This document shows positions 2,512 to 32,305 of a stretch of DNA of 37,288 nt, in pieces (position 1 is the first letter of the stretch; every line of letters starts with the position of its first letter). A program made the position numbers and the translations under genes. The stretch is from Candidatus Omnitrophota bacterium (GTDB taxonomy: Bacteria > Hinthialibacterota > Hinthialibacteria > Hinthialibacterales > JAKPRU01), in the NCBI GenBank assembly GCA_029570205.1, contig JAKQSI010000055.1, positions 1-37,288 of the forward strand. Direction: 5' to 3'. The notes beneath the pieces were generated by a model. It did no database searches, had not been told where the DNA came from, and was given only the letters and a program-made list of their open reading frames with translations.

Positions 2512-5500
2512 TCACTCCGCCACGATCTGCGATCCCGGAGATTCGGCGCGGATTCCGGTATTGTAATATGAATAGGCTGCGCTGGTTCCGATAATCGCTC
2601 TCACCGGGAACAGGGCTTTCACCTGAAAAGTAAACTCAACGGACTCAGCCGGTTCCAGGCCATCCACATAGAAGATCACTTTCCGGCCCGCCTGCTCCAC
2701 CCGCTTGATGAGATCCAGTTCCAACACCTTGTCCAGGCTTTCCTGCACCGCCGCAAATCCCGTGGGAACCGAGATATCCAGGATCAGCATCCCGGAGGAT
2801 GGTTGTGGTGTCGGGACCGGCGTTCCCTCCGGGTCTGGAATCGGCTCGCCGCCCAATGCTTCCGGTTTCTCATTCCCCCCGCTTTCCCCCGGCTCCTCCA
2901 GGCCATAATAGGTCGCCGTCACCCGCACATCCACAAGATCATCCACCGCCACATGATCCGTGGAATAGGCTACCTGCAAATCCATTCCGTTGCGGATCAG
3001 ACCGGCATCGCCGGAAGACCACACATTGAAAATCTTCGCCAGCTGATACGTGATATCGCCCTGTCCGCGATGACGAAGTTCCAGAGCGCCTTCCCGTGGA
3101 ATCTCATACACCTGGAGAACGTCAAAATTGGCGCTGTTGACATGAAACGTATGAAGCAATTCGCCATCCAGAAGAAGGTCGATGTCCGCATTGGTGTTTC
3201 TCGACTGACGCAGAGCGGCCTCGGCGAGCGCACGAAACGCCATGACCGTATCCTGTGTGGAACCGAATCCGCCCAGGGAGTTCCGCTGCGCCGCAATCCA
3301 GGACAGGGCGGCGGCGGCTTCCGGTCGCGATTGCTCCATCAGAGCCAGCGCAGCGTAGGCGGTCGTTTCTACCGAATTAGGCGACCAGTACATGCCGTTC
3401 TTGTCTGTCTCGGCAAGCGTCAACAGCAAATCCACCGCTTGCCCGGCTGCCGGATGATCCACGCCGGAAAGCGCAAACGCCGCAATCGCCAGCGCGTATG
3501 GATTATCGGTGGCCTCCATCAGATGGCTTTGGAGGTAGTTCGCCGCGTTCTGCCGGACTGTCGCAGAACCGCCGGCATAAGTTGAAAGCGCATTCAAAAC
3601 ATAAGCTGTCAGTCCGTAATTCCCATTCAGCCCGCCGATCATTTCCTGGTGACAAATAAATCCCACCGGCTCCCAGGAACCGTCCGCCAATTGGTGACTT
3701 TCGATCCAGGTTGCCGCGCTCGCCAGGACTGTTTCATCAATCGTGCGCACATCGCGCGCAACGCTGAATGTCGAAAGAACAAACGCTGTCAGCCACAAAC
3801 TGCCCTCCTCGTCCGATTCCCCAAACGCCGAGAAAGAACCATCACTGTGCCGGTACGTCAGTTCCCGTTGATAGCCGACATTGACAAATGTCTCCGCCTT
3901 GGCCCGGATCTCCGGATTCAGTTGCCCAGTAAGTTCCAGGTAGCGCAGCACCTCGATATCCGGCGCGAGAAAGATCATGTTCTGCTCGCCGCACCCATAA
4001 GGCATTCCAAGCAGATCATCGATACCGTTCATGGACTGCGCAACAAGGCTGGGAGTGATTGCAAGACGCAGTTTGCCGGAATCGGGAACAATCGCGGGAA
4101 TCGCTGTGTCGGTTTCCGGTTCGGGCCGGATTTCCCATGGAAAACAGGCATCAAGGGTGACGGTTTCGCCCTCGTGAATGATTCCGTTGGTTACCGACTC
4201 GCGGCGCGTTCCTTCCGGTTCCACCCGAAACTCTTTGCGGATGGCATCTGCCCGGCTCGCCGATTGTGCGATCACCTCCAGGGTCCAGGTCCCCACTTTG
4301 ACCGGCTTGATTGGGATCGACACTCCCACAACGGCGTTCGGCTCCACGGTCACCGTCTGTACCAGATCGCCCAGCGGTTCGAAGAAATCGCCCGCCTTCA
4401 GTTCCAGACGCACCTGCTGGGGAACATCGACATAGTTGAACACTTGCAGAAGTAAGGGGAACTCTTCCCCACGTGTGACCGCATAAGGCAGGTCCGGCTC
4501 CACAAAGAAATCCTGGAATACCCGCAGAGAGCCTTCTGTGATTCCAAGCCCCCGTTCGGAGGTTGAGACCGCGTGAAGCCGCCAAGTGGTGATGGAATCC
4601 GGAGCCGTCAGGTCAATCGAGACCGCCCCGGAGGCATCGGTTTTTATCTGAGGATTCCACAGCCATGTCTCCGGGAAGAATTGCCGAACGCGCTGGACTT
4701 CGGCCAGATCGCCGCCCCCCGCCCCATTTTCCGGTTCGCCGACCGGCTCCGGAAAGTTCTTTTCATTGCCAAAAAACACGCCAGGTCCACGCCAGAACCT
4801 CCAGGGTTCGATCTCTTTGCCCTGCGGCAGGAAAAATCCTTTCGAGGTCACCATCTGCAACCCCGCACCCTTTAGAGTATCCGCGCTGCCCTCGCTGCCG
4901 ACTCGGGGCATATCCCACGGACTGCCGGGATGCTCCTCAACCTGGGGTTCCATGAAAATGCGTTCCAATTCGGCGAACACCTGTTGAAGGTTCAGCCTCC
5001 CCGCCGCCAGGGCATAGACCGACTCATCTACAATCGAAAGGCCGATCATCGCCTCGCCGGGTGTTTGAAGATGAAGCGCAACCGGATTGCCCGGCAGGAC
5101 TTCATCCGCCGAAAAGGAGGCTTTCAAAGAATCGGTTGTTGCCTGCTCTACCTCAAATGGAAGAACATCGGCGGAGACTTCTCCATCGGGATTGATGAGA
5201 TAGGCTACAATTTTCGATTCGGGACTCATCTCCGGTGTAATTGTGAACCGGATATCCCGACCCGTTACCACGCCCGAAAAGACCGTCCGCCCGGCGGCAA
5301 ACACATCATAGAAAATCGTTCCGGGATTCGTCGAAAACGCTGTAAATGCCGCTTGGTCTCCGATCTTGCAGATCCCCGTCTCCGTCTGCCGCACATGCAG
5401 GAAACTGGACGAGGGAGAATAAGTAGAGTTCAGCGTGATGGTTTGGCTTGCCAGATAGTTCCCCGCTTTCAATTCCGCATGGAATTGCCCCATAACGGCC

Positions 5501-7725
5501 TTCTCCGGGACAGCGGGGATATCCACAAGTCGAAGTCCGTTTGCAGTAGAGACAGGTAGAGTGGATTGCTCAATCACCTCCATGTTTTCATTCCAACAGG
5601 TGGTTTGGAGCGAGACTTCGCCGCTTGTGGGAACACCGTCCGGGGTCTCGGTGATTACCAGAACCTGAAGAGGAAGCCCCGGTTTCAGAGTCTGGGAATC
5701 GGTGATCAGGCGCACCTGGATGGGGGCGTCTACAACGCGCAACAGAAGACTTGTTCGCTCCTCATGCCCGCTTTCGTCCGTCACCACAACGTCCAGCTGA
5801 AGCGTTCCTGCGCCTTCTTCCGCCAGGGTTCCGGAAACATACTCAACCGGCGGAAGGAAGAACTCGATCTTGCCGTTTTGAAGTTCCCCTGTAAATGTGG
5901 CGTACTGGTCCCACGCGCCGATATACCGGAATGCCGCCAGATTGACCTTGCCCTCTACAGGCTTTCCGAAGAAGTATTGCGCGTCAATTGTTCCATTGAT
6001 CTGTTCGTCATAGAGAAACCATGTTTTCTCCGTGTTCACTTCGACAGCGAACTTGGGCAGGACATACCGATCCACCAGCACATCCAGAACCGTCTCGGAA
6101 CTGCCGGATTTCGCGCGGATTTTCCATGTTCCCAGATTCAGCTCATTGGCCAGGGGGAGATTGAATGGGGTAATACCAAACAAATCCGCTGTCACAGTCT
6201 CCTTGTGAATCTTGATTCCTTTGGCGTCAGAAATGGAAACTTCGACTGTGCCTGGAAGTGGGGTGAGATCATTGCTGAGAGAAAGGACACGTCCCTGGAT
6301 GGTCTGGCCGGGGCGGTAGATGGGTTTGTCGGTCTCAACAAACAGAACCGGACCCTCTTGGACGGTCACATTCGCGCTGAGGGTCTCATTGCCTTCGATA
6401 TTCAGCGCGAACGAATACGAGCCGGAGGGCACATTGGGCGCCTTAAATAAGATATTCCGATGCCCGGTCGCGTCTGTTGATCCGGTAAAGATCGGAATGG
6501 CCACCTCACCTGTGGACATGGTCAGGCGAATCGCCGCCGGCGTGGGCTTGAGGTCCTGACCGGAAAAAGTCGTCACATTGACCGATGCTTTTCCGCCCGC
6601 ATAGATCTTCAGCGGAGCGACCATGGTGGCCGCAATTTCCCCTGTCACATGAGTTTCGGGATCGAGATCGCCCGTGTGACGGAATACCAGCAAATCATCG
6701 AGAACCGCCCGTTCGGATACGCCGGGCGCTCCGGGTGTGTGCTGCAAAGCAACCATAAGGAATTGCGGCGCATACTTGAAAAACCCACCTGTGTGCAGTA
6801 GCTCGTTACCGACCGCATCGGATGCAAATTCCGTAACTCCCAACATTTCTCTTTCGGAAGTCAAAACGAGCGTCACCAGGTTCGTTCCGCTTTCCGCCGA
6901 GAGAACGGTAGTCTGTGTGAATAACCAGCCTGCCTGTTCTGTTGTGGGCTGTTCGGCAACCGCTCCCGCATTGGCTGATCCGCCTTCGGGCGTCGTAGTC
7001 AATTCCACCGCGTGCCCGGATTCCACAGAGACCACTCGTGTCTGTCCCGGAACGCCGCCGATACCCGAAATGAGAGATTCCGTATTGCTTTCAAAGTCGC
7101 CACACGGCAACAGTGAAATGAGGTTGTCGGGTTTCGGGAACCGCGCAAGGAAAATCTCAAAGTTGTCGAAAAGAATCTCCACCGGCCCGGGTGCGCTTTC
7201 CGGCAGGGCAGCCTGAAAAACAGGCACAATCACACCGGATGGCGCTCGATAAACAAAAGCCAGTTGTTCCGCATCTTCCGACGGAGCGCCGACCGCATTC
7301 CGAGCCACATAAGCCATTCGGCCATCCGCCACATCCTGTTCTCCAATGTTCAGCGCACCAAGCGCCACACTTGCTCCCGGTCCGGATACCCAGACCAAAC
7401 ATTGCGCCAGCACGGGGTCCGATCCGACCGCATAAGGCGTATTCCCGATAATCAGCATCCCCTCGCCCGGATTGAGCGAGATCAGGAGACCCTGCCCATC
7501 ACTGAGACCCGATTGGACCGGCGCATGCCCGATGCTCACATACCCGGCAGACAGACCGACAGGGGCGCCGGCAGCGAACTTCTCCACAGAGAACTCCTTT
7601 TCGCTGAACCGATCAAATGCCAACGGCTCGCCTGCATAGCACGGTGAGAAGACAAATCCAAAGACGATTGGGAGAAGGGGAACAACACAAGTGCGCGCAA
7701 ATGAGGAAGTTAAGCAATTTCGCAT
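2512..7725 (-). CDS. Alpha-2-macroglobulin family protease inhibitor with thioester, exported
   Basis: This 1737-residue protein begins with a signal peptide (hydrophobic to about residue 31, no clear lipobox). Two beta-sandwich-like segments (about 35-350) precede macroglobulin domains; the MG2 signature ETDKPIYRPGQT lies near 463-474. A Gly/Pro/Glu-rich, low-complexity bait-like stretch is near 925-1010. The thioester motif GCGEQ is intact (Cys1245, Gln1248), followed by an alpha-helical thioester domain with GYQRELTYRHSDGSFSAFG, very close in style to animal A2M/C3. A Pro-rich linker near 1610-1640 leads to a receptor-binding-like C-terminal domain. Known members trap proteases by bait cleavage and covalent capture through the thioester. 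Bacterial A2Ms often sit beside pbpC; no such partner is seen here. The start follows CCGGAGG at 9 nt. It is divergent from the TolB-like gene. Family call is strong; export destination is inferred. Confidence 0.93.
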   Translation of the reverse strand: MRNCLTSSFARTCVVPLLPIVFGFVFSPCYAGEPLAFDRFSEKEFSVEKFAAGAPVGLSAGYVSIGHAPVQSGLSDGQGLLISLNPGEGMLIIGNTPYAVGSDPVLAQCLVWVSGPGASVALGALNIGEQDVADGRMAYVARNAVGAPSEDAEQLAFVYRAPSGVIVPVFQAALPESAPGPVEILFDNFEIFLARFPKPDNLISLLPCGDFESNTESLISGIGGVPGQTRVVSVESGHAVELTTTPEGGSANAGAVAEQPTTEQAGWLFTQTTVLSAESGTNLVTLVLTSEREMLGVTEFASDAVGNELLHTGGFFKYAPQFLMVALQHTPGAPGVSERAVLDDLLVFRHTGDLDPETHVTGEIAATMVAPLKIYAGGKASVNVTTFSGQDLKPTPAAIRLTMSTGEVAIPIFTGSTDATGHRNILFKAPNVPSGSYSFALNIEGNETLSANVTVQEGPVLFVETDKPIYRPGQTIQGRVLSLSNDLTPLPGTVEVSISDAKGIKIHKETVTADLFGITPFNLPLANELNLGTWKIRAKSGSSETVLDVLVDRYVLPKFAVEVNTEKTWFLYDEQINGTIDAQYFFGKPVEGKVNLAAFRYIGAWDQYATFTGELQNGKIEFFLPPVEYVSGTLAEEGAGTLQLDVVVTDESGHEERTSLLLRVVDAPIQVRLITDSQTLKPGLPLQVLVITETPDGVPTSGEVSLQTTCWNENMEVIEQSTLPVSTANGLRLVDIPAVPEKAVMGQFHAELKAGNYLASQTITLNSTYSPSSSFLHVRQTETGICKIGDQAAFTAFSTNPGTIFYDVFAAGRTVFSGVVTGRDIRFTITPEMSPESKIVAYLINPDGEVSADVLPFEVEQATTDSLKASFSADEVLPGNPVALHLQTPGEAMIGLSIVDESVYALAAGRLNLQQVFAELERIFMEPQVEEHPGSPWDMPRVGSEGSADTLKGAGLQMVTSKGFFLPQGKEIEPWRFWRGPGVFFGNEKNFPEPVGEPENGAGGGDLAEVQRVRQFFPETWLWNPQIKTDASGAVSIDLTAPDSITTWRLHAVSTSERGLGITEGSLRVFQDFFVEPDLPYAVTRGEEFPLLLQVFNYVDVPQQVRLELKAGDFFEPLGDLVQTVTVEPNAVVGVSIPIKPVKVGTWTLEVIAQSASRADAIRKEFRVEPEGTRRESVTNGIIHEGETVTLDACFPWEIRPEPETDTAIPAIVPDSGKLRLAITPSLVAQSMNGIDDLLGMPYGCGEQNMIFLAPDIEVLRYLELTGQLNPEIRAKAETFVNVGYQRELTYRHSDGSFSAFGESDEEGSLWLTAFVLSTFSVARDVRTIDETVLASAATWIESHQLADGSWEPVGFICHQEMIGGLNGNYGLTAYVLNALSTYAGGSATVRQNAANYLQSHLMEATDNPYALAIAAFALSGVDHPAAGQAVDLLLTLAETDKNGMYWSPNSVETTAYAALALMEQSRPEAAAALSWIAAQRNSLGGFGSTQDTVMAFRALAEAALRQSRNTNADIDLLLDGELLHTFHVNSANFDVLQVYEIPREGALELRHRGQGDITYQLAKIFNVWSSGDAGLIRNGMDLQVAYSTDHVAVDDLVDVRVTATYYGLEEPGESGGNEKPEALGGEPIPDPEGTPVPTPQPSSGMLILDISVPTGFAAVQESLDKVLELDLIKRVEQAGRKVIFYVDGLEPAESVEFTFQVKALFPVRAIIGTSAAYSYYNTGIRAESPGSQIVAE

Positions 7726-23657: not shown

Positions 23658-24545
23658 ATGAAGAAAAAACGCGGCGCTGTACGAAAAATGGATGTCTCGG
23701 AGGCACAGCGCGTTGTGCGGATGCACGAAGCCGCTCGTGAACTCGAGGAGGCCAAACGCGATGTGGCCATTCGAATGGAAGCCGGCCTGACAACGGAACC
23801 GACAGGAACCGCGGACACCGAAATCGGCAGTATCATCGCTGCCGGCATGACCCCCCAACAGGCCGCAGCAGAAATCCGGAGAATCTTTGACGACTTTATG
23901 AACGCTTTGGCGGAGTATGTTTTTCACCCGGCTCATCGAAAACGGTTCTTTCCAGACCGGAAAGCCGGCTATCTCGTGGGCCTGTTGAAAGGCGCCGGGT
24001 ATACAATGCAGGCCGCAGCGGCCATGGACATTTTCAAAGATCGTGTCAAGCAAAAACAGGGCGGAAAAATGCCGACCATTACCGAAAAAACCGGATTGTT
24101 TGGCAAAACCACCAGCCGGCCCATGAAATTGGGGGAAATTGTCAACCGGTTCGAGGTAGAGGAACATCTACCTCCTGAAGATCTTCCATCGCTGACAGGG
24201 TTTGTTGGAACACAGCGGGGATTGCTGGATTACGTTCGCGCCTCCCTCTTCGACGGGGAAGAAATCCGCGATCCGATCAAACGCAACCAGCGGAAACAAC
24301 TTACCGCCTTCCTCAAGGGAGCCAAACTCCTGGACCCCGCCACCGATGACCGTCAGGAAAAAGTGGTTATTGCCTGTCTGCTCACCCCCGATGCCTATCA
24401 ACCGAAATCCATGGACGACATCGAACGGATCCTCCGATTTCGGGGACTTCTCTCGAAAGGCACACAATATCTCCGACGGAGAGTCAAGGCGTTGGAGGCA
24501 GCACAGGCAGCCGAGAATACGACAAACCAGGACAATTCCCAGTAG
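23658..24545 (+). CDS. Protein of unknown function
   Basis: A 295-residue soluble protein I do not recognise. It begins with a basic stretch and a charged helix (VSEAQRVVRMHEAARELEEAKRDVAIRME), then a mostly helical body with no signal peptide or membrane segment. The segments ISTIIAAGMT-like (IGSIIAAGMTPQQAAAEIRRI) and RNQRKQLTAFLKGAKLLDPATDD are notable but not diagnostic, and no catalytic motif stands out. The RBS is weak (AAGAG directly before the ATG). The coding call is supported by length, clean codon use and lack of any better frame; large minus-strand frames here look like shadows. The radical SAM gene starts 254 bp further on the same strand. Confidence 0.7.
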   Translation: MKKKRGAVRKMDVSEAQRVVRMHEAARELEEAKRDVAIRMEAGLTTEPTGTADTEIGSIIAAGMTPQQAAAEIRRIFDDFMNALAEYVFHPAHRKRFFPDRKAGYLVGLLKGAGYTMQAAAAMDIFKDRVKQKQGGKMPTITEKTGLFGKTTSRPMKLGEIVNRFEVEEHLPPEDLPSLTGFVGTQRGLLDYVRASLFDGEEIRDPIKRNQRKQLTAFLKGAKLLDPATDDRQEKVVIACLLTPDAYQPKSMDDIERILRFRGLLSKGTQYLRRRVKALEAAQAAENTTNQDNSQ

Positions 24546-24777
24546 AATTTGGGTATCCGCTTCCACTTTCCGAAGGTTGAATTTTTCGCTCGGTCTGGTA
24601 TATTCGGCGTGGACCCGTGATGGTTGATTGACAGGGAGAAAAGGGGGATCGATATTCCGACGCCGTTCAGGCGTATTCGATTTGTCCTCCGCAACCGCGT
24701 TGATCGTCCGGTGTCTAACAAAGAAGTTGTATCCGACCCCACGGCGAGCACAAATGGGGGATTGCAAGGCTAAGAAA

Positions 24778-26761: not shown

Positions 26762-29700
26762 CTAAATCCGTGGATCAAGAATCGGTCCCAGATACGCTTG
26801 AAACGGTTCCGGCACATCATACGGACCGATTGCCCGTATGGTGATCTTGCCGTCAATTCTCCGGGTCTGCGACAGGGAGATACGATCCTCCACCGGCGGA
26901 CGATGGTTTTTGGTTCCCAATCCGGAAATAAGACGGTTCCATCGGACCTGTATGCGCTCGCCGTTCGGCTCGCTTCGTACATGAGCCGGTTTTGCCGGGA
27001 CTATGCCGACTCCGTAGCCGTCCTCATCATTCCAGGAAGCCCATTGCACATTCCCCTTGTTTCCCGCACAGAACGGTTCGCCGGTCCAGAACGAGAAATA
27101 CCCTTTCAATGCCGCAATATGACGATCCGGGTACCAGCAATTCGGTCCGTATCCCTGCCAGCAGAAACGGCTCAACGATTTGGGTATCTCAAACCGCAGC
27201 CCATATTCGGGAAGTTCACAATCCAGACCGACCGCTTCCAGGCGATAGGTAATCTCCACAGCGGCCTGATCCGGGAACGAATATGAAAGATCCAGGTTAA
27301 ATCCGGCGTTGGAATCTACAGTTGAGCGATACGAATGTCTGGCGATCAGGGTTTTCCCGCTCCGTCTGACTTGGGATCGATCCTTCTGAAGTTCCAGATT
27401 CGCCAGGCGCACGCCACCAAACAGGGCGCCTTCTTTGTCCCAAACCTGCTCCGAAAAACTTCTCGGACGATAAACATTCGGCAGCAGCGGACCGTACAGT
27501 ACCTCCTTGCCGTGTGATGAAACCGAAATCAGCTCCCCGGTATCGCCGTTCATGGTAAGGCCCAGCGGCCCGGCTGTCACACAGGTGATCGGTCCGGCGG
27601 AAATCTCGACCGATTCTTTTCGATAAGCAGGGGCGGTCTGACTCGGTTCCTTAATTCCCATGTCAACTCGACAGCGGCTGACCTCGATCCCGTTCCAGTC
27701 GGTAAATGTCACCAACAGAAAGGTATCTTCCGGATGCGCGAGATCTTTGGGGATTTGTGCGGGAACCGAGAGACTTCGAGTATGGTGCGGCGGACATTCA
27801 ACCGGAATCACCCCGCTTCGCAGCTGTTTTCGCCCATCAAACAAAAACCAAGTCACCAGAATCCGGTTCAGGTCCGTGAAATCGTACCGATTCTCGACAT
27901 TCAAGGCGATTTTTTTCTTGCCTGATTGCGCCGGAATTGTTGTCTCTTGAATCAGCGCCGGACGGTATACTGCCATGGTTTCGTAATACTCCGGCTGCGG
28001 AATCCGATCGGAAGAGACAATCCCGTCGGTCCCCTTGATCCCCTGCGCATCCACCACGGTATTCTCATCCACCCAATAATCGGCCTGGATATCGGAGGGG
28101 GTCCCGGACTGAATCAGCGGATCGGCCTTTGCGTCCCATACCTCTCTTCCGTCCACTTTGCGGCGAATCCCCCGGTCCGACCAGAGCCAGATCATGCCCC
28201 CGGCGCATTTCTCGCATTCACGAACCTTCTCCCAGATATTCTGCAAACCTCCGCAACCGTTCCCCAATGCGTGCGAAAATGCGGTCATAATCACCGGGCG
28301 GGGCGTCGATCCCTCCGGAGGTTGACAGAGTTTCACCAAGTCCTCCCCAGCAGGAAAATGAGGAGCCAGAATATCTACTTCCGACGGAAGATTTTCTTCA
28401 TCGCGCTGCGGACACAGCACTGGACGGATCGGATCGATGGCCTTGACCAGGCTGATAATCTCGCGCGTCATCCCGGTATACGGATTCTCATTCCCAATAC
28501 TCCAACTGAGAACGGATGGATGGCTGCGGTCACGAGTGACAACTCCGCGGCCCCGAAGCAGGAAATACGGCAGATATCGTGTGTCCCAAAGCAGATGCTC
28601 GGCAAAATCGAACGGAACCTCCTCGATGACATACATCCCCATTTCATCGCATAGATCGATGAATCGCTCGTCCGGGGGATGAAACAGCGTTCGCACCGCG
28701 TTGATATTTGCCGCTTTCATCAGTTGGAGGTCTCTCCGCCAGAGCGTTTCATTGAATGCGGCGCCGGCGGAAGGGTCCAATTCGTCCCGGCATACGCCTT
28801 TCAGTTTGATCGGAACGCCGTTCAGCATGAAAACACCGCCCTGGATATGCACCGACCGAAATCCCACCTGTCGGACCACCTGCTCCCCAAGCCTTTTGTC
28901 GAACTGCAACGAGACTGTCAGCGTGGCAAGGACCGGGGACTCCGCCGACCACGGCGGAACATTCGGGATCGATTCATCCCACTCCAGGTGTGGCGAAGGG
29001 ATCTCCTGGCCGGAAACCTGTACTGTTTTCTGTTTCCGCAGCAACTCGGTTCCCTGTGGACCGGTCAGGCGGATCTCTCCGGTTACGGTTTCTGTTCGGG
29101 TGTGAGATGGAGGAAAGGAATCCAGCGCCATTTGAACCCGCAACCGGCCGGATTGATCCTTGGGATTGTAATCCGCCCGCACAAACAGGTCTTGAATAAA
29201 CGACTGCGGTTTCCGGATCAGGATCACCGGACGATAAATGCCGGATAGACTCCACGTGTCAAAACAGTCAAGAGAACAAATCTCCGGCGCTTTCACTACG
29301 CGCACCGCAAGGGTGTTTTCGGCTCCATATTCCAGAATCTGCGCAACCTGCACCTCAAACGGTGTGAATCCGCTCCAGTTCGATCCCACCTCCCGACCGT
29401 TGATCCATACTGTGGACCCGAACGAGACTCCCTCAAAACGGATATAGACAACACTGTTTTTCCACTCCGCCGGGAGGAAAAACTTGCGGCGGTATAACCC
29501 CATCAGATTAGAACGTGAGCCGAACTCCGGCTCCTCAAATCCGTACATCTCCCAATTCCCCGGAACCGGCACTTCGGGCCAGTCGGAATCGTCATACCCC
29601 GGCGCGGTAAAACCTGCAAACTCGGCAAAACCCTTGTTGTCTACAACACGCAATTTCCAGGTTCCGTCCAGGGAGAGGAAACTATTCGACTGATTCGATA

Positions 29701-29785
29701 TCGGCACCGCGTTCACACAAAGTGACAACAGAACAATCGGTGAAACCAGCCGAAGAACTTGTATGATAATCCGTTGAAGGTTCAT
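26762..29785 (-). CDS. GH2 beta-galactosidase-like protein with Ala in place of the nucleophile, exported
   Basis: This 1007-residue protein has a signal peptide (VLRLVSPIVLLSLCVNA) and the LacZ-like order: jelly-roll N domain (WKLRVVDNKGFAEF; WINGREVGSNWSGFTPFE), Ig-like domain, TIM barrel (FNETLWRRDLQLMKAANINA), then a small-chain-like C region (FEIPKSLSRFCWQGYGPNCW). The acid/base Glu is retained (Glu433 in SWSIGNEN). The nucleophile position is Ala502: the block reads IMTAFSHALGN where LacZ has ILCEYAHAMGN, codon GCA at 28280-28282. The Mg-ligand segment DEANIETHG is EEVPFDFAEH here. It may be catalytically dead, sugar-binding or use another mechanism. The start follows AAGG at 7 nt; a longer in-frame start upstream would put 50 residues before the signal peptide and is rejected. 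It is divergent from mnmA. Confidence 0.9.
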   Translation of the reverse strand: MNLQRIIIQVLRLVSPIVLLSLCVNAVPISNQSNSFLSLDGTWKLRVVDNKGFAEFAGFTAPGYDDSDWPEVPVPGNWEMYGFEEPEFGSRSNLMGLYRRKFFLPAEWKNSVVYIRFEGVSFGSTVWINGREVGSNWSGFTPFEVQVAQILEYGAENTLAVRVVKAPEICSLDCFDTWSLSGIYRPVILIRKPQSFIQDLFVRADYNPKDQSGRLRVQMALDSFPPSHTRTETVTGEIRLTGPQGTELLRKQKTVQVSGQEIPSPHLEWDESIPNVPPWSAESPVLATLTVSLQFDKRLGEQVVRQVGFRSVHIQGGVFMLNGVPIKLKGVCRDELDPSAGAAFNETLWRRDLQLMKAANINAVRTLFHPPDERFIDLCDEMGMYVIEEVPFDFAEHLLWDTRYLPYFLLRGRGVVTRDRSHPSVLSWSIGNENPYTGMTREIISLVKAIDPIRPVLCPQRDEENLPSEVDILAPHFPAGEDLVKLCQPPEGSTPRPVIMTAFSHALGNGCGGLQNIWEKVRECEKCAGGMIWLWSDRGIRRKVDGREVWDAKADPLIQSGTPSDIQADYWVDENTVVDAQGIKGTDGIVSSDRIPQPEYYETMAVYRPALIQETTIPAQSGKKKIALNVENRYDFTDLNRILVTWFLFDGRKQLRSGVIPVECPPHHTRSLSVPAQIPKDLAHPEDTFLLVTFTDWNGIEVSRCRVDMGIKEPSQTAPAYRKESVEISAGPITCVTAGPLGLTMNGDTGELISVSSHGKEVLYGPLLPNVYRPRSFSEQVWDKEGALFGGVRLANLELQKDRSQVRRSGKTLIARHSYRSTVDSNAGFNLDLSYSFPDQAAVEITYRLEAVGLDCELPEYGLRFEIPKSLSRFCWQGYGPNCWYPDRHIAALKGYFSFWTGEPFCAGNKGNVQWASWNDEDGYGVGIVPAKPAHVRSEPNGERIQVRWNRLISGLGTKNHRPPVEDRISLSQTRRIDGKITIRAIGPYDVPEPFQAYLGPILDPRI

Positions 29786-29881: not shown

Positions 29882-29919
29882 CAGGTTGCACCGGCATCTT
29901 GCCGGTGGGTGACAACCTG
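29882..29919. promoter_or_regulatory. Nested two-stem hairpin in the mnmA leader
   Basis: CAGGTTG and CAACCTG form an outer 7-bp stem; inside, CACCGGCA and TGCCGGTG form a perfect 8-bp stem with a three-base loop. The structure ends 14 bp before the mnmA start codon, where a weak RBS (CCGGAAC) lies. It could be a repeat element or a leader control site. Confidence 0.4.
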
Positions 29920-29933
29920 CCCGGAACAAAAAC

Positions 29934-30971
29934 ATGAAACAAAAAACAGCAGTCCTGATGAGCGGCGGGGTAGACAGCAGTGTGGCGGCGCTGTTGCTGA
30001 GAGACCGGGGCTATAATGTCTTTGGGCTGACCATCCTGCAGTATGAACATGACCCATCGGACAGCCAGGTGGAAAAGGCGCAATCCGTGGCGCACCTTCT
30101 TGGGTTGGAACATCACACTCTTGCACTTTCGCAATTCTTTCGGGAAGCCGTGATCGAGCCGTTCCTGGAGGCATATCGCGCCGGGCGAACGCCCAATCCC
30201 TGCTTTCGCTGCAATCCCAGGCTGAAATTCGGCAAATGCTTTGAGATCGCCCGGCAAATGGGCGCCGAATGCATCGCCACCGGCCATTATGCGCGGATTC
30301 TCTCGACAGACCGTGGGCTGCGACTCGGCAGGGCGATGGACCCGTGGAAAGACCAGAGCTATTTCCTGGCAGGAGTTCCAGGCGGAATGCTGGAAAACAT
30401 CCTGTTTCCTAATGGCGAATTGACAAAGGAACGGGTCCGTCAAATTGCGCGGGAACATAGCCTTCCCGGTGCCGACACCGAGGAAAGTCAGGAGATCTGC
30501 TTTACACCGGGCGGTGATGTTCATGCCTTCCTGGAAGGGCAACTTGAGGAAAATGAGGGGGATATCGTGGACGGTTCAGGCGCAGTTTTGGGTTGTCACC
30601 GGGGGATTGTGCATTACACCGTAGGACAGCGAAAAGGACTGGGATTGGCCGGCGGGCCGTATTATGTCCGGGCGCTGGATGCAGCGAGAAATCAGGTGCT
30701 TGTCGGCAGGTATGAGGAGCTGCTTGCACGCAGGGTCTATGCCGTCGAGGCAAATTTCTTTGCCCCTCTTGTACAGGGAACCGGCGGCCAGGCCAAGATC
30801 CGATCCCGCCACACCGCCGCACCCTGCACAGTGATTCACGCAACGGGGGAAACATTCGCTGTGGAGTTCACCCAACCGCAGTGGGGTGTGGCCCCCGGTC
30901 AGGCTCTGGTCCTTTATCATGGAGATATCATTCTCGCAGGCGGCGTAATTGACCGCTGGGACCCGGCCTGA
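29934..30971 (+). CDS. mnmA: tRNA 2-thiouridylase
   Basis: This 345-residue cytoplasmic enzyme inserts sulfur at U34 of Glu, Gln and Lys tRNAs. The N-type PP-loop is SGGVDSS (10-16). The catalytic Cys lies in TPNPCFRCN (Cys93, with Cys90 nearby), the second active Cys in EESQEICF (Cys189), and the tRNA-binding C-terminal beta domains begin near YTVGQRKGLG. Length is a little short of E. coli MnmA (about 370). It stands alone between the GH2 gene (divergent) and the PHP gene. A hairpin occupies its leader. Confidence 0.93.
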   Translation: MKQKTAVLMSGGVDSSVAALLLRDRGYNVFGLTILQYEHDPSDSQVEKAQSVAHLLGLEHHTLALSQFFREAVIEPFLEAYRAGRTPNPCFRCNPRLKFGKCFEIARQMGAECIATGHYARILSTDRGLRLGRAMDPWKDQSYFLAGVPGGMLENILFPNGELTKERVRQIAREHSLPGADTEESQEICFTPGGDVHAFLEGQLEENEGDIVDGSGAVLGCHRGIVHYTVGQRKGLGLAGGPYYVRALDAARNQVLVGRYEELLARRVYAVEANFFAPLVQGTGGQAKIRSRHTAAPCTVIHATGETFAVEFTQPQWGVAPGQALVLYHGDIILAGGVIDRWDPA

Positions 30972-31153: not shown

Positions 31154-32305
31154 ATGTCTCGATCGCGATCTTACCGCTTTTCTTCACTTGTGGTCTTCAT
31201 CTCCGCCTCTCTCTTTTTCACCTTTGCAGGACCGGTCCGGGCAGAGGTTCGCACGGAGGTGAAGATCCCGAACATCCCGGAATACACGATACTCAAGTGC
31301 GATTTCCACACGCACACCGTCTTCTCGGATGGCGATGTCTGGCCGACCGTCCGGGTCGAGGAAGCCTGGCGGGATGGACTGGATGCCATTGCCATCACAG
31401 ATCACATTGAATATCAGCCACACAAAAAAGATGTATCGACCGACCACAACCGTTCTTATGAACTGGCCGAGCCGCAGGCACAGGCCCTGGGAATGATCCT
31501 TATCCGTGGGGCTGAGATCACCCGCAGCCTCCCTCCGGGACATTTCAACGCCATCTTTATCAAGGATGCCAATCCGCTGGATACGAAAGAGTATCTGGAT
31601 GCGATCAAGGCCGCCATCGATCAGGGCGCATTTGTGTTCTGGAATCATCCGTCATTCTCTCATCCGAAAGGAATCTCCGAATGGTTTCCCGAACACACCA
31701 CGATCTTGGAGAAAGGCTGGATGTACGGTATCGAGGTTGTGAACGGAAGAACCTATTACCCGGAATCTCAACAATGGTGCCTGGAGAAAAAACTGACCAT
31801 GATGGCGGACTCGGATATCCACGACCCGATTGGGATGTATTCCATTCCGGGCGTGGAAGAGAAACGACCGATGACGCTTGTCCTGGCGAAAGAGCGGACA
31901 CCGGAGGCAATCAAAGAGGCCCTGTTTGCCCGCAAAACAGTTGTTTACGCCTTGGGGATGCTGATCGGGGAAGAACAATATCTCAAGCCGATTTTCGATG
32001 CCTCCATCAATGTGCTGAATCCTTCCGTCAATCTCTCTGCGGGCGGCAGGGGGATTTGTCAAATTCGAAACAATTCTGAGGTGAGTTTTGAATTGGAGTG
32101 CGCCGCCCAACCGGAGGATATCACGGTCCCTCAAAGTCTCGTGTTGTATGGAGACAAGGTCACCAGATTTCCAATCAAGGCCAAATCGAAAGAGACTACC
32201 GGCACAAAGAAAGTTAAAGTCTCGTATGTGGTAAAGAATCTCCTGATCGCCCCGAAAACAGGACTGCCGGTAACTTTGGACTTCGAGGCGGTCTTTACGA
32301 AATAG
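31154..32305 (+). CDS. Exported PHP-domain metal-dependent phosphoesterase-like protein
   Basis: A 383-residue protein with a signal peptide (SLVVFISASLFFTFAGPVRA) and a PHP metal-binding site: HTHTVFSDG (His52, His54), ITDH (Asp83, His84), GAEIT (Glu121), WNHP (His165) and ADSDIHD (Asp219/221, His223). PHP enzymes hydrolyse phosphoester bonds with two or three metal ions; the natural substrate is unknown. A C-terminal beta-sandwich of about 100 residues follows. AAAGGAG lies 6 nt before the ATG. Upstream, TTGCAG and TATGCT with 18-bp spacing (31074-31103) may be a weak promoter. The FG-GAP gene follows at 28 bp, so both are probably one operon. Confidence 0.87.
   Translation: MSRSRSYRFSSLVVFISASLFFTFAGPVRAEVRTEVKIPNIPEYTILKCDFHTHTVFSDGDVWPTVRVEEAWRDGLDAIAITDHIEYQPHKKDVSTDHNRSYELAEPQAQALGMILIRGAEITRSLPPGHFNAIFIKDANPLDTKEYLDAIKAAIDQGAFVFWNHPSFSHPKGISEWFPEHTTILEKGWMYGIEVVNGRTYYPESQQWCLEKKLTMMADSDIHDPIGMYSIPGVEEKRPMTLVLAKERTPEAIKEALFARKTVVYALGMLIGEEQYLKPIFDASINVLNPSVNLSAGGRGICQIRNNSEVSFELECAAQPEDITVPQSLVLYGDKVTRFPIKAKSKETTGTKKVKVSYVVKNLLIAPKTGLPVTLDFEAVFTK

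Follow-up and report, generated by a model that had tools for sequence, protein, structure and literature searches.

The window analyzed here, meaning the whole stretch of DNA under study, is 37,288 nt long and covers positions 1 to 37,288 of contig JAKQSI010000055.1 from a Candidatus Omnitrophota bacterium (assembly GCA_029570205.1). The genome is 4.39 Mb in 131 contigs, the GC content of the window is 51-57%, and the phylum was represented by 14 genomes in the set examined. GTDB OLB16, equivalent to Hinthialibacterota, is listed with 21 genomes or species of 3.39-7.54 Mb with a GC content of 49.66-65.03% (PMC11382960). A LacZ-type GH2 homologue is encoded at positions 26762-29785, with its ATG at 29785-29783 and its stop codon at 26764-26762. 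The frame is real and open over 1007 residues, as the sequence-only reading had said; the strand, which that reading omitted, is minus. An alternative in-frame start, giving a longer frame, is found upstream at 29935; the three species of the genus compared here (the window's own and two congeners) all share the Met at 29785. The gene is flanked by a convergent radical-SAM/DUF4070 gene on one side and a divergent mnmA on the other, and no polysaccharide-utilization genes adjoining it were found in the neighbourhood within the window. The gene and its parts are:

26762..29785, minus strand: LacZ-type GH2 homologue, 1007 aa, single-gene unit (domain search; same place in two congeners, L093 and L094)
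29708..29785, minus strand: putative type I signal peptide, residues 1-26, MNLQRIIIQVLRLVSPIVLLSLCVNA (read by eye; start Met common to both congeners)
29207..29674, minus strand: GH2 N-terminal sugar-binding (jelly-roll) domain, residues 38-193 (PF02837, E=1.1e-20)
27965..28852, minus strand: GH2 TIM-barrel domain, residues 312-607; active site altered (PF02836, E=3.6e-42)
26978..27556, minus strand: LacZ domain-5-like C-terminal domain (Bgal_small_N), residues 744-936 (PF02929, E=5.2e-16)

Pfam searches recovered the full five-domain LacZ architecture (GH2_N, Ig-like GH2, GH2 TIM barrel, LacZ_4, and Bgal_small_N). The GH2 family domains (PF02837, 74.7 bits; PF00703, 34.7 bits; PF02836, 145 bits) and LacZ domains 4 and 5 (PF16353, 34.4 bits; PF02929, 59.5 bits) all scored above the curated cut-offs, and the NCBIfam cut-offs for LacZ equivalogs were missed (NF052611, 408.5 bits vs. 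999; NF041100, 352 bits vs. 2000). The nearest solved structures are LacZ-type beta-galactosidases, both by sequence (E=3.3e-80) and by Foldseek (E=7.4e-68). The structure model is of moderate quality (pLDDT 75, built from 17 sequences); it has a predicted helix at residues 2-25, within the signal-peptide-like stretch that had been claimed earlier and that could also be recognized by eye.

Other features of the window were noted in passing. A REP-like palindrome, CACCGGCATCTTGCCGGTG, lies at 29889-29907 in the gap before mnmA and has 31 copies in the genome with one mismatch or less, compared to 0 for the reversed control. A PHP-domain gene (31154-32305) between mnmA and an FG-GAP gene is missing at this place in congener G009 (L093) and was thus gained or lost within the genus. 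The window also encodes a bacterial alpha-2-macroglobulin-like protein (1737 aa; 2512-7725, minus strand), in which a bait region and a thioester domain are recognized, and carries a 199-aa gene (24168-24767), whose congener copy (L093:7174-7768, minus strand) matches in two frames and may be frameshifted.

We numbered the active site by alignment with E. coli LacZ (L059). The positions that carry the argument are:

28784..28786, minus strand: Asp334, replacing LacZ His357 (H357D); His in intact homologues
28682..28684, minus strand: Phe368, replacing LacZ His391 (H391F); from alignment with homologues
28487..28489, minus strand: Glu433, the LacZ acid/base Glu461, retained in the SWSIGNEN motif
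28355..28357, minus strand: Phe477, replacing LacZ Tyr503 (Y503F; DILAPHF for DIICPMY); from alignment with homologues
28280..28282, minus strand: Ala502, codon GCA, at the LacZ nucleophile Glu537, lost; TAFSHALGN motif, GCA in 3/3 species

The loss of the nucleophile, the retention of the acid/base Glu, and the spacing of 69 residues between the two sites (76 in LacZ) had all been read from the sequence before, and all three held in the alignment. Neither Asp nor Glu occurs between positions 496 and 518 of the translation, which rules out a register shift to a neighbouring acid. By sequence family the protein belongs to GH2, and the nucleophile Glu of retaining glycosidases is absent from the protein in all three species. 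H357, H391, and Y503, absent from the earlier reading, are the more telling losses: together with E537 they form columns that are near-invariant among 32 homologues with both catalytic Glu residues. In LacZ, H357 and H391 contact the sugar. Conversely, the equivalents of LacZ Asn460 (Asn432), Asp201 (Asp176), His540 (His505), and Trp568 (Trp533) are kept. The protein retains 64 of the 73 near-invariant columns of the intact homologues, and the active site bears a disproportionate share of the changes (4/9 columns lost vs. 5/64 elsewhere; Fisher p=0.011); the scaffold therefore appears intact, with the damage centred on the active site.

A changed Mg-ligand segment had also been offered as a sign of inactivity. 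This argument was dropped, because nucleophile-bearing relatives (L057, L037, L048, L072, and others) are equally devoid of E416/H418; Asp393 of the window protein occupies the position of a LacZ Mg ligand. The active pneumococcal enzyme BgaA has an active site without bound metal (PMC4161441).

The same residues bear on the possibility that the protein is still an enzyme working by another mechanism. As an inverting hydrolase, a lyase, or a transferase, it could use Glu433 as acid (or base), with the missing role taken by water, by a group of the substrate (substrate-assisted catalysis), or by a carboxylate that has moved, for example Asp334. Such a reading would account for the retention of Glu433, Asn432, His505, Trp533, and Asp176 in 3/3 species, and acidic residues do stand at an active-site His position (Asp334) and at a Mg-ligand position (Asp393). 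However, four active-site residues are gone together, and the loss of H357, H391, and Y503 makes another mechanism less likely. Substrate-assisted enzymes of the GH18/GH20 type use an acidic pair, and no such pair adjoins Glu433; to our knowledge, no GH2 enzyme works by an alternative mechanism of this kind. We regard continued catalysis as unlikely.

Next, the gene was compared among congeners. Ala at the nucleophile position, which the sequence-only reading had suggested looking for in close homologues, was found in both congeneric orthologues (97 and 90% aa identity, from separate assemblies), each with an intact 1007-codon frame and each located between the radical-SAM/DUF4070 gene and mnmA. 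A base-call error at codon 502 is excluded by the occurrence of GCA in these two separate congener assemblies. The dN/dS ratio was 0.124 against G008 (97% aa identity) and 0.082 against G009 (90%). In a control comparison, the G000/G009 pair gave 0.105 and 0.090 for two intact GH2 genes, so the protein is constrained about as much as intact GH2 enzymes. The earlier view that this is not a decaying gene is thus borne out: with codon 502 identical across the three separate assemblies, the frame intact in all three species, and dN/dS at 0.08-0.12, a sequencing or assembly error or a gene in decay has a negligible probability. A catalytic residue is lost and the gene is kept by selection, two of the marks by which a pseudoenzyme is recognized.

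The constraint is unevenly distributed along the protein. Within the genus, conservation is highest in the N-terminal sugar-binding domain, which differs from G009 at 4.5% of positions vs. 11.5% for the barrel (p=0.015; 41 substitutions, one species pair), and the two intact GH2 controls had no such contrast between domains. The difference is no more than suggestive of constraint having moved away from the barrel and towards the sugar-binding domain.

Outside the genus, the nearest relatives (L057, L037, L048, L038, L072) belong to Bacteroidota, Verrucomicrobiota, Acidobacteriota, and Massilia. These are GH2 proteins of the NE[ND]P type, and identity to them reaches 48% in the barrel and is 27-30% after residue 194. 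They have the NEN/NED-P motif in common with the window protein and retain the nucleophile Glu, H357, H391, and Y503, whereas the window protein is changed at all four. Glu in close homologues had been named as evidence against a real loss; it was found only at these distances and not within the genus, which dates the loss and does not refute it. Since all the nearest outside relatives carry the nucleophile, the loss arose on the long stem of the genus or earlier within the order. A mirror image was seen in UBP15-type genomes (another candidate phylum; L044, L045, L046, L049), which have SLGDDN at the acid/base site vs. SLGNEN in intact relatives, R/L at H357/H391, and N at H540, with the nucleophile Glu kept.

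Within the same order, sister family f2 was found to have a second nucleophile-less clade (L011, L012, L018, L019, L020, L024), with one copy per genome in 6/6 genomes. Its proteins are LacZ-like and have lost the nucleophile like the window protein, with S, D, G, A, N, and D at this position and Glu in 0/6. They form a separate clade from the window's gene and are more degenerate than the Ala type: the acid/base Glu, kept in the window protein, is missing in 5/6. Their N-terminal sugar-binding domain is undetectable in 3/6. No synteny was found between the f2 loci and the window locus. With three genomes of the Ala type and six of the second clade, all nine genomes of the order examined carry one nucleophile-less LacZ-like homologue each, and this distribution is the new observation of the present work.

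Clade placement was derived from quick tree searches. A tree in which the Ala type and the f2 clade were held together was 14.4 log-likelihood units worse (AU p=0.159), and profile scores (608 vs. 371 bits) favoured a nucleophile-bearing ancestor of the NE[ND]P type for the window protein. The nucleophile may have been lost once or twice: the AU test allows a joint clade, and the profile scores favour separate descent. One f2 protein, L012, also has H357D, Y503F, and the GLGxxxHR motif like the window protein; these common features may reflect common descent or convergence.

A small exported protein of 180-204 aa without a Pfam family is encoded directly downstream of the f2 homologue in 4/6 genomes, at the following loci:

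L087:11420-12034, plus strand
L092:10854-11396, plus strand
L091:7549-8109, minus strand
L096

Related copies occur at other places in f2, and f5 has a single one; in the window's genus none was found. This pairing, frequent in f2, touches on a purely structural or protein-binding role, in which the barrel would be a fossil and the function would reside in conserved surfaces of the beta domains or in an oligomer interface. The strong conservation of the N-terminal domain within the genus would fit such a role as well. Yet no partner gene adjoins the window's gene, the genus is without the small exported protein, and several active-site residues stay invariant, so that we consider a role of this kind quite improbable.

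The reading we favour, and hold to be probable, is an exported full-length GH2 pseudoenzyme of the LacZ type that is dead for retaining hydrolysis and binds carbohydrate. It brings together Ala502 in three species, purifying selection, the kept scaffold, the suggested shift of constraint, and the f2 clade devoid of nucleophile in 6/6 genomes. Retaining GH2 enzymes need the nucleophile to form the glycosyl-enzyme; with Ala502 no such intermediate would form, and a site that has also given up H357, H391, and Y503 is expected to be incapable of ordinary hydrolysis. The end of a glycan could then be held uncut by what is left of the pocket and by the N-terminal jelly-roll domain, as LacZ E537Q and BgaA E645Q hold uncut sugar. 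The protein, periplasmic or secreted, would thereby serve in carbohydrate binding or as a scaffold. The sequence-only reading had proposed an exported sugar-binding pseudoenzyme. The pseudoenzyme part stands on the lost nucleophile and the selected frame, export is predicted from the signal-peptide-like stretch read by eye, and we infer inactivity and sugar binding from the altered and the retained residues and domains. Several points count against this reading: no polysaccharide-utilization genes adjoin the gene; with H357 and H391 gone, affinity for galactose may be lost; and the kept Glu433, Asn432, His505, and Trp533 could equally point to retained chemistry. In a broader form, the order (of the OLB16/Hinthialibacterota-like phylum) would have converted a LacZ-type GH2, in one event or in two, into a protein that is exported, does not hydrolyse, and fills a new, conserved role, and the window version would in addition use its acid/base Glu in an undescribed GH2 reaction; this combination is a long shot.

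A lineage that keeps one nucleophile-less copy per genome makes it possible to ask what the GH2 scaffold does besides cutting sugars. Annotation by domains only would label such proteins beta-galactosidases, and the sugar-degrading capacity of uncultured bacteria would be over-counted.

Few enzymes have been studied as thoroughly as LacZ, yet no natural GH2 or LacZ-type pseudoenzyme was found described in the open-access papers searched, where most apparent hits seem to be prefix matches to other families (GH20, GH28). The window protein has the five-domain architecture of the LacZ-type beta-galactosidases (E. coli LacZ; Thermotoga maritima, 6s6z/6sd0; B. thetaiotaomicron, 3bga/3dec) and equivalents of their Glu461, Asn460, His540, Trp568, and Asp201. 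It differs from them in the missing nucleophile, in H357D, H391F, and Y503F, in an incomplete Mg site, and in having no equivalent of W999; most of the intact NE[ND]P relatives likewise have neither the Mg ligands nor W999. LacZ E537Q (1jyn, with lactose, among the Foldseek matches of the window protein) and BgaA E645Q (4cuc) are likewise GH2 scaffolds without a nucleophile, but these are engineered single changes in which, unlike in the window protein, all other sugar contacts are kept. Klotho (GH1) and YKL-40 (GH18) are natural pseudoenzymes of glycoside hydrolase families. When the nucleophile is mutated in LacZ or BgaA, lactose or LacNAc is held without being cut, in a shallow, loading mode (PMC4161441), and a natural glycoside hydrolase pseudoenzyme has been described in beetle GH28 (PMC6549527). 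In beetle GH28, Klotho, and YKL-40, as in our reading of the window protein, a catalytic residue is gone and the protein is kept by selection and exported; these three are eukaryotic and belong to other families, whereas the window protein is a bacterial GH2.
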